Shown: positions 31,132 to 32,567 of the stretch, in pieces
Position numbering within the stretch: position 1 is the first letter of the stretch
Layout of the letters: the number at the start of each line of letters is the position of its first letter
Source: Methanococcoides sp. LMO-2
GTDB lineage: Archaea; Halobacteriota; Methanosarcinia; Methanosarcinales; Methanosarcinaceae
Direction of reading: 5' to 3'
Length of the DNA: 64,000 bases
Assembly: GCF_038432375.1 (NCBI RefSeq)
Contig: NZ_JBCAUS010000002.1
Span: 746,282-810,281, forward strand
The notes under the pieces: model-generated
Told to the model about the DNA's origin: nothing
The model's database searches: none
Seen by the model: only the letters and a program-made list of their open reading frames with translations
Program-made: the position numbers and the translations under genes

Positions 31132-31181
31132 TACATAATGTAAACAGCAAATAATAGAAAGCAAGCAAACGGGGGGGTTAT

Positions 31182-32567
31182 ATCCGTTTAGAGAAAGATA
31201 CACTTGGGGAAGTGGAAGTACCTGAGGATGCATATTATGGTCCTCAGACAGCAAGAGCAGTTGAAAATTTCAAGGTCAGCAACCAGAGGCTTCCACCTTC
31301 ATTCATAAAAGCACAGGCTGCAATAAAGATGGCATCCGCACATGCCAATATGGAAGCTGGAAAGCTTGACAGCACAAAAGGGAATGCCATCATCCGGGCC
31401 GCATCCGAAGTGAGGGAAGGTAAGTTCGATGACCAGTTCGTGCTGGACGCATTCCAGTCAGGCGCAGGGACCTCGCAGAACATGAACGCGAATGAGGTCA
31501 TTGCCAACAGGGCACTTGTGATCCTTGGTTTTGAAAAGGGACATTACGACATCGTTCACCCGAACGACCATGTGAACATGTCACAGTCCTCGAATGATAC
31601 CACACACACTGCTATCCACATTGCAGCTGTGGAAACCATCAATGCAGAGCTCATGCCCGCACTTGCGGAAATGCTGATCGTTCTTGCCGAGAAATCATCT
31701 GAGTTCATGGACATTGTCAAGCCCGGAAGAACACATCTGCAGGATGCAGTACCCGTAACGCTCGGCCAGGAATTCTCCGGATATGCACAAATGTTAGAGC
31801 TTGGAATAAAAAGGCTCGAGGTTTCTCTTGATGGCCTATAGGAACTGAACATGGGTGGTACTGCCGTCGGTACCGGACTTAACACGCCGGAAGATTTCAG
31901 TCAGATCGCAATAAAAGAGATGGAAGTGATCACCGGGCAGGATTTCAGGCTTGCCCATAATCCTTTTGAGGCCACCCAGTCCGCAGAAGCGATCCTCGGA
32001 GCATCGGCTGCAATGCGAGGTATTGCAGTTAGCCTCATCAAGATAGCAAATGACCTGCGTCTTCTTTCAAGCGGTCCGCGAACAGGTATCGGGGAGATAA
32101 ACCTCCCGGCAGTACAACCCGGTTCGTCCATCATGCCCGGAAAAGTGAACCCGGTAATGGCCGAGATGCTTAACATGGCATGCTTCCAGATCATCGGGAA
32201 CGATACGGCAATAACCATGGCGGCACAGGGTGGACAGTTCGAGCTTAACGTATTCACCCCTGTTCTTGCATATGATCTTCTCAGCTCAATAGAAATACTC
32301 ACTGGTGCATCCATATCGTTTACGGAAAAGTGCCTTAGGGGAATCACCGCTAACAGGGAAAAATGTGAGGAACTATCAAAGCAGAGTCTTGCTCTTGTCA
32401 CTATACTTGCAACAAGCATAGGTTATGAGAAAGCAGCAGAGATCGCATACACTGCACACCGGAAGAACAGGAGCATAATCGAGATCGTAAAGGAGATGGA
32501 CATAATGGATGAAAAGGAAGCAGAAGAGCTTCTTGATCCTCTCAGTATGACGGGAGTGAAAAAATGA
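31182..32567 (+). CDS. class II fumarate lyase (aspartase/fumarase) with in-frame amber codon, possible pyrrolysine protein
   Basis: One continuous frame of 462 codons encodes a class II fumarase/aspartase: RLEKDTLGEVEVPEDAYYG, HPNDHVNMSQSSNDT (about residues 126-140), GGTAVGTGLN, and the signature GSSIMPGKVNP (314-324). Codon 220 is TAG (31839-31841), between EVSLDGL and ELNMGGTAVG. Homology continues across it without shift, so it is either decoded (pyrrolysine in this family of archaea) or a single nonsense mutation. KVNPVMAEM and ITMAAQGGQFELNVF lean towards aspartase. No ATG/GTG/TTG exists before GTG 31212; the homology suggests ATC 31182 behind a run of seven G. The stop overlaps the next gene's ATG. 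Confidence 0.75.

Follow-up and report, generated by a model that had tools for sequence, protein, structure and literature searches.

A conserved in-frame UAG codon, predicted to encode pyrrolysine, in a class II fumarase/aspartase gene of Methanococcoides

Results

A class II lyase gene is interrupted by a single in-frame UAG codon

Within a 64,000-nucleotide stretch of DNA from Methanococcoides sp. LMO-2 (the window), a gene for a class II fumarase/aspartase (fum) carries a TAG at codon 220. This UAG is very likely decoded as pyrrolysine (Pyl), which would give a full-length, 461-residue lyase with Pyl at residue 220, specified by a codon that appears ancestral within the genus and that seems mostly to be tolerated there. 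The single frame described by the first-pass annotation, a complete class II fumarase/aspartase broken only by this TAG, was borne out by translation and by full-length family matches: its codons occupy nucleotides 31182 to 32564 and are followed by a TGA terminator at 32565 to 32567 (Table 1).

The read-through product matches the Lyase_1 (E 2.8e-100) and FumaraseC_C profiles, and aspartase/fumarase family matches span its whole length. The HPNDHVN and GSSIMPGKVNP blocks are both intact in the alignment, as had been claimed, and the latter loop, a THLQDAVP motif and the two profile matches place the product among the class II fumarases/aspartases. The only cut-off passed was that of NF008909, a broad NCBIfam aspartate ammonia-lyase subfamily (618.5 bits vs 510); scores fell below the equivalog cut-offs for class II fumarase proper (TIGR00979, 576.1 bits vs 664.75) and aspartase proper (TIGR00839, 552.1 bits vs 681.2). 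Given these scores, and because the genome also encodes a class I fumarase alpha subunit, the product may be either a fumarase or an aspartase.

Profile matches identify the adjoining frdA and frdB genes as a fumarate reductase/succinate dehydrogenase pair. The overlap coupling to this pair proposed earlier is indeed present as an ATGA formed by the fum terminator and the frdA start, and the same overlap occurs in every Methanococcoides member that has an intact fum gene.

Table 1. Positions in the window of the fum gene, its neighbors and associated elements
Feature	Position	Strand	Remarks
G-rich Shine-Dalgarno-like tract followed by ATC (31182-31184) in start-codon position	31171..31184	+	ATC aligns with the ATG start in Methanolobus profundi (L038:5001)
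Class II fumarase/aspartase gene (Lyase_1 + FumaraseC_C)	31182..32567	+	461 codons with TAG as sense; TGA end
In-frame TAG, codon 220, predicted pyrrolysine	31839..31841	+	TAG in seven species; CAG in G003; TGG in G008
Internal ATG open reading frame, start for the termination-reinitiation alternative	31851..32567	+	ATG is the conserved Met of ELNMGGTAVGTGLN
frdA, fumarate reductase/succinate dehydrogenase flavoprotein, 558 aa	32564..34240	+	ATG overlaps the fum TGA
frdB, iron-sulfur subunit, 262 aa	34240..35028	+	

The UAG codon is shared by most Methanococcoides species

The locus has its nearest named relatives in Methanococcoides, and the comparison set comprised the LMO-2 genome (G000) together with ten other genomes of this genus. 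An intact fum gene is present in eight of the ten, or nine in total. The first-pass annotation had suggested asking whether relatives also carry TAG at this codon, and seven of the nine species do (G000, G010, G001, G004 (M. vulcani), G007, G005 and G009 (M. seepicolus)). The remaining two carry CAG (Gln; G003) or TGG (Trp; G008), each one base from TAG. No fum orthologue was found in G002, whose genome is 76% complete. Another genome, G006, which is probably M. burtonii (DSM 6242), retains only the first ~80 codons of fum, joined to the end of frdB (L028, G006:C1:80537-83782). A deletion has removed most of the fum-frd operon there, and the gene is therefore dispensable somewhere in the genus.

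A gene tree built without codon 220 contains two well-supported clades, one of six TAG-bearing species (clade A) and one of G008 with the pair G009 and G003 (clade B). By a hand count on this tree, a TAG ancestor of the genus needs two single-base changes, whereas the sense-codon ancestors considered need about four. Because CAG and TGG are each a single step from TAG, the Methanococcoides ancestor most likely carried TAG.

The first-pass annotation had called the codon position variable and often Tyr or Gln in relatives. The variability stands, but the residues named were a loose description: among Methanosarcinales the two sister species have Q or W at the site and other genera have K, L, A, T or E there, and Tyr was found in the Bacillus aspartase 1j3u.

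Both halves of the gene are under purifying selection

Pairwise dN/dS values were calculated by the Nei-Gojobori method for the portions before and after the TAG separately. Between TAG-bearing species the values are mostly 0.04-0.10 in both halves; in shallow clade B pairs the first-half values are higher, at about 0.16-0.22. In three independent pairs the C-terminal half has 9, 7 and 9 codons with an amino-acid change vs neutral means of 34, 33 and 45, and 2000 neutral simulations never produced fewer than 22 such codons, so that none was as low as observed. Both halves are thus under equally strong purifying selection in the TAG-bearing species, which have no indels and no further stops across the 461 codons.

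These results bear on the fresh nonsense mutation that the first-pass annotation had regarded as the main rival, and on the related idea that fum is a pseudogene. An in-frame TAG in a gene lacking a canonical start codon, and the deleted remnant in G006, are what a decaying gene might leave. However, the TAG occupies the identical codon in seven species, dN/dS is low downstream of it and the frame is otherwise unbroken, and we consider this explanation scarcely credible. A fresh mutation or a sequencing error is ruled out by the sharing of the TAG among seven species, and relaxed selection is refuted by the low dN/dS past the TAG.

Purifying selection on both halves would likewise be produced by a split enzyme, in which the UAG ends a 219-residue chain, translation reinitiates at the ATG at 31851 and the two fragments assemble. 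That ATG lies 9 bases past the TAG and has an AGGA ahead of it; as a conserved Met of a family motif, however, it is there for another reason. Codons 221 and 222, directly after the TAG, change only synonymously in this small sample (GAA/GAG and CTG/TTG). Stopping at the TAG and restarting at the codon 224 ATG would leave them untranslated, and their pattern of change therefore favors true read-through. The gene is also uninterrupted in two sister species, and a split at this point would interrupt the conserved central helical domain. A two-fragment enzyme is accordingly very improbable.

The genome encodes pyrrolysine machinery and rarely terminates at UAG

The search for pylTSBCD that the first-pass annotation had proposed was positive. 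A gene for tRNA-Pyl(CUA) (L112:7685-7756) is followed by pylS, pylB, pylC and pylD in one cluster (G000:C6, L112:7685-12040), where pylS was named by an NCBIfam match and pylB, pylC and pylD by gene order and sequence reading. Every Methanococcoides genome searched has pylS. As a positive control, two MtmB and three MttB copies were found in the LMO-2 genome, each with one in-frame TAG.

The presence of a dedicated tRNA with a CUA anticodon and of its synthetase bears on whether a near-cognate tRNA might read this UAG as an ordinary amino acid, independently of Pyl. Such decoding would sit well with the tolerance of Q, W, K and other residues at the site, but with the dedicated pair at hand we judge it extremely unlikely, and decoding by tRNA-Pyl is the reading we retain.

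Termination at UAG is uncommon. In the window, 55 of the 56 gene calls of at least 100 aa terminate with TGA or TAA; fum is the only call ending in TAG. Over 461 kb, 17 of 378 calls of at least 120 aa end in TAG; this sample joins the window to 397 kb of sampled stretches, some picked for methyltransferase and pyl genes, so that genome-wide usage is an estimate. From raw frequency, TAG is expected at ~18% of stop triplets. Most of the 17 either are in-frame TAGs of methyltransferases, as recognized from their extensions and their location at MtmB/MttB matches, or belong to calls that lack a Pfam match. Several TAG-ending open reading frames were discounted as genes because they lack Pfam matches and their translations are of low complexity or antisense-like.

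The recognizable genuine TAG stops number about 3 in the 461 kb, at pylB, an NTP transferase gene and a PfkB gene. UAG is hardly used as a terminator in Methanococcoides and is close to a true sense codon, yet it is not purely sense, because pylB and the NTP transferase gene end in TAG. The pylB gene (L112:9052-10293) has an open extension of 42 codons beyond its TAG that overlaps pylC; in M. burtonii, among others, pylB has been described as terminating at this TAG (PMC2933860). The PfkB-family kinase gene (L137:18247-19146) ends in a tandem TAG-TAA, and its termination is therefore independent of UAG.

Elsewhere in the genome, a frame at L126:4684-5553 (G000:C2:104683-105552) contains a single TAG, located just upstream of a C-X6-C-X2-C-X5-C iron-sulfur motif that resembles the one in endonuclease III. 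This frame is a second candidate Pyl protein, for which there was no Pfam match and no TAG-bearing orthologue in the genus.

The fum gene appears to begin with an AUC codon

A detail absent from the first-pass annotation is that fum lacks a canonical ATG, GTG or TTG start. In all nine intact Methanococcoides genes, an ATC behind a G-rich Shine-Dalgarno-like tract occupies the start position. No in-frame ATG, GTG or TTG is present at the start in the six clade A species, and the other three have an in-frame GTG five codons upstream of the ATC. Codons 2-8 vary largely synonymously across the genus. This pattern suggests that fum starts with AUC, a candidate case of AUC initiation kept genus-wide.

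Residue 220 lies outside the conserved catalytic residues

An AlphaFold2 model of the full-length product, with Pyl entered as lysine, has a mean pLDDT of 90.7 and a TM score of about 0.95 to fumarase C (FumC) and aspartase (AspB). Residue 220 directly follows the helix formed by residues 194-219. The conserved residues expected in the active site by analogy with E. coli FumC (T97, S98, N138, H185, S315, S316, K321, N323 and E328) are all invariant across the alignment, and residue 220 is not one of them. A chain ending at residue 219 should be inactive because it would be missing the S316-E328 segment. A catalytic Pyl does not fit the range of residues at position 220, where sister species have Q or W and other genera have K, L, A, T or E. 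Since the position varies and is not among the conserved catalytic residues, the side chain of Pyl would probably be tolerated as a near-neutral passenger, and its replacement by Gln and Trp in two species points to no special need for it.

Discussion

The presence of pylT and pylSBCD, homologous coding on both sides of the TAG, and a UAG position conserved in seven of nine species with purifying selection downstream are the features by which we recognize fum as a candidate Pyl protein gene. Together with the near-absence of TAG terminators, they strongly support Pyl incorporation at residue 220 and with it the earlier proposal of a Pyl-containing metabolic enzyme. In the mechanism we propose, tRNA-Pyl(CUA) charged by PylS would decode the UAG, and the ribosome would continue to the end of the class II lyase. 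A special read-through signal would be unneeded, since the lineage rarely terminates at UAG, although UAG may terminate in part. The TAG, at a variable position at the end of a helix, would predate the divergence of the known Methanococcoides species and would have been kept mostly because it was tolerated, giving way in two species to the one-step sense codons for Gln and Trp.

The first-pass annotation had also raised the possibility that the codon renders expression dependent on pyrrolysine, and so on methylamine growth. Under such an arrangement, low pyrrolysine would stop translation at residue 219, the loss of ATGA coupling would lower frdAB expression, and fumarate metabolism would be tied to growth on methylamines. 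The retention of TAG in seven species across the genus, the ATGA overlap kept wherever fum is intact and a start codon that also looks non-canonical are consistent with this idea. Indeed, the conserved UAG and the apparent AUC start could be viewed as a selected low-expression gate, in which the amount of lyase produced, and via the overlap that of fumarate reductase, is set by the supply of Pyl; if so, a central-carbon operon would respond to methylamine growth. We regard both the regulatory role and selection for such a gate as unlikely. A Gln or Trp codon has replaced TAG in two species in which the gene is still under selection, the residue is variable in all other genera, and UAG is seldom a terminator in the genome. 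The 100 bases after the TAG also have no unusually stable RNA fold relative to shuffled sequences (z -0.11). The substitutions in two sister species, and the variation elsewhere, argue for a tolerated neutral substitution rather than gating.

Pyl outside the methyltransferases is already known and predicted. The M. acetivorans tRNA-His guanylyltransferase Thg1 has an in-frame amber codon whose Pyl is unneeded for activity, and transposases of Methanosarcina are also predicted to hold Pyl (PMC2933860). Thg1 and fum are alike in that neither enzyme belongs to methylamine metabolism and that the in-frame amber codon falls where Pyl is dispensable (Thg1) or predicted to be tolerated (fum). The Thg1 codon occurs in one species, whereas that of fum occurs in at least seven and is probably ancestral to the genus. 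In other predicted read-through frames of Methanosarcina, among them a CobN homologue, the presumed Pyl aligns with various residues (PMC1242214). As in fum, homology extends around the presumed Pyl; these are predictions, however, several of them in mobile elements, whereas fum has multi-species conservation and a selection test. The methyltransferases MtmB, MtbB and MttB, of which the genome has TAG-bearing MtmB and MttB copies, obtain their Pyl from the pylTSBCD machinery that is predicted to serve fum as well, but their Pyl is catalytic and at the active site, unlike the variable site of fum.

Two genome surveys included M. burtonii as the sole Methanococcoides (PMC1242214, PMC3639795), and fum appears to be deleted in this species. 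No report of Pyl in a fumarase or aspartase was found in the literature searched. Recent proteomic work reportedly describes "Pyl code" archaea that read TAG generally as sense and carry Pyl in many ordinary proteins, and it may list the fum product. The near-absence of TAG stops and the predicted Pyl in an ordinary protein resemble what is reported for these archaea.

The fum product would thus be a further Pyl protein with unusually good comparative support. It would offer a clean evolutionary case of an ordinary metabolic enzyme that has held pyrrolysine from a time before the genus split into its species, and would mean that pyrrolysine is not confined to methylamine methyltransferases. 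Standard annotation would label fum a pseudogene or two fragments, and methods that treat UAG as a stop will miss such proteins.
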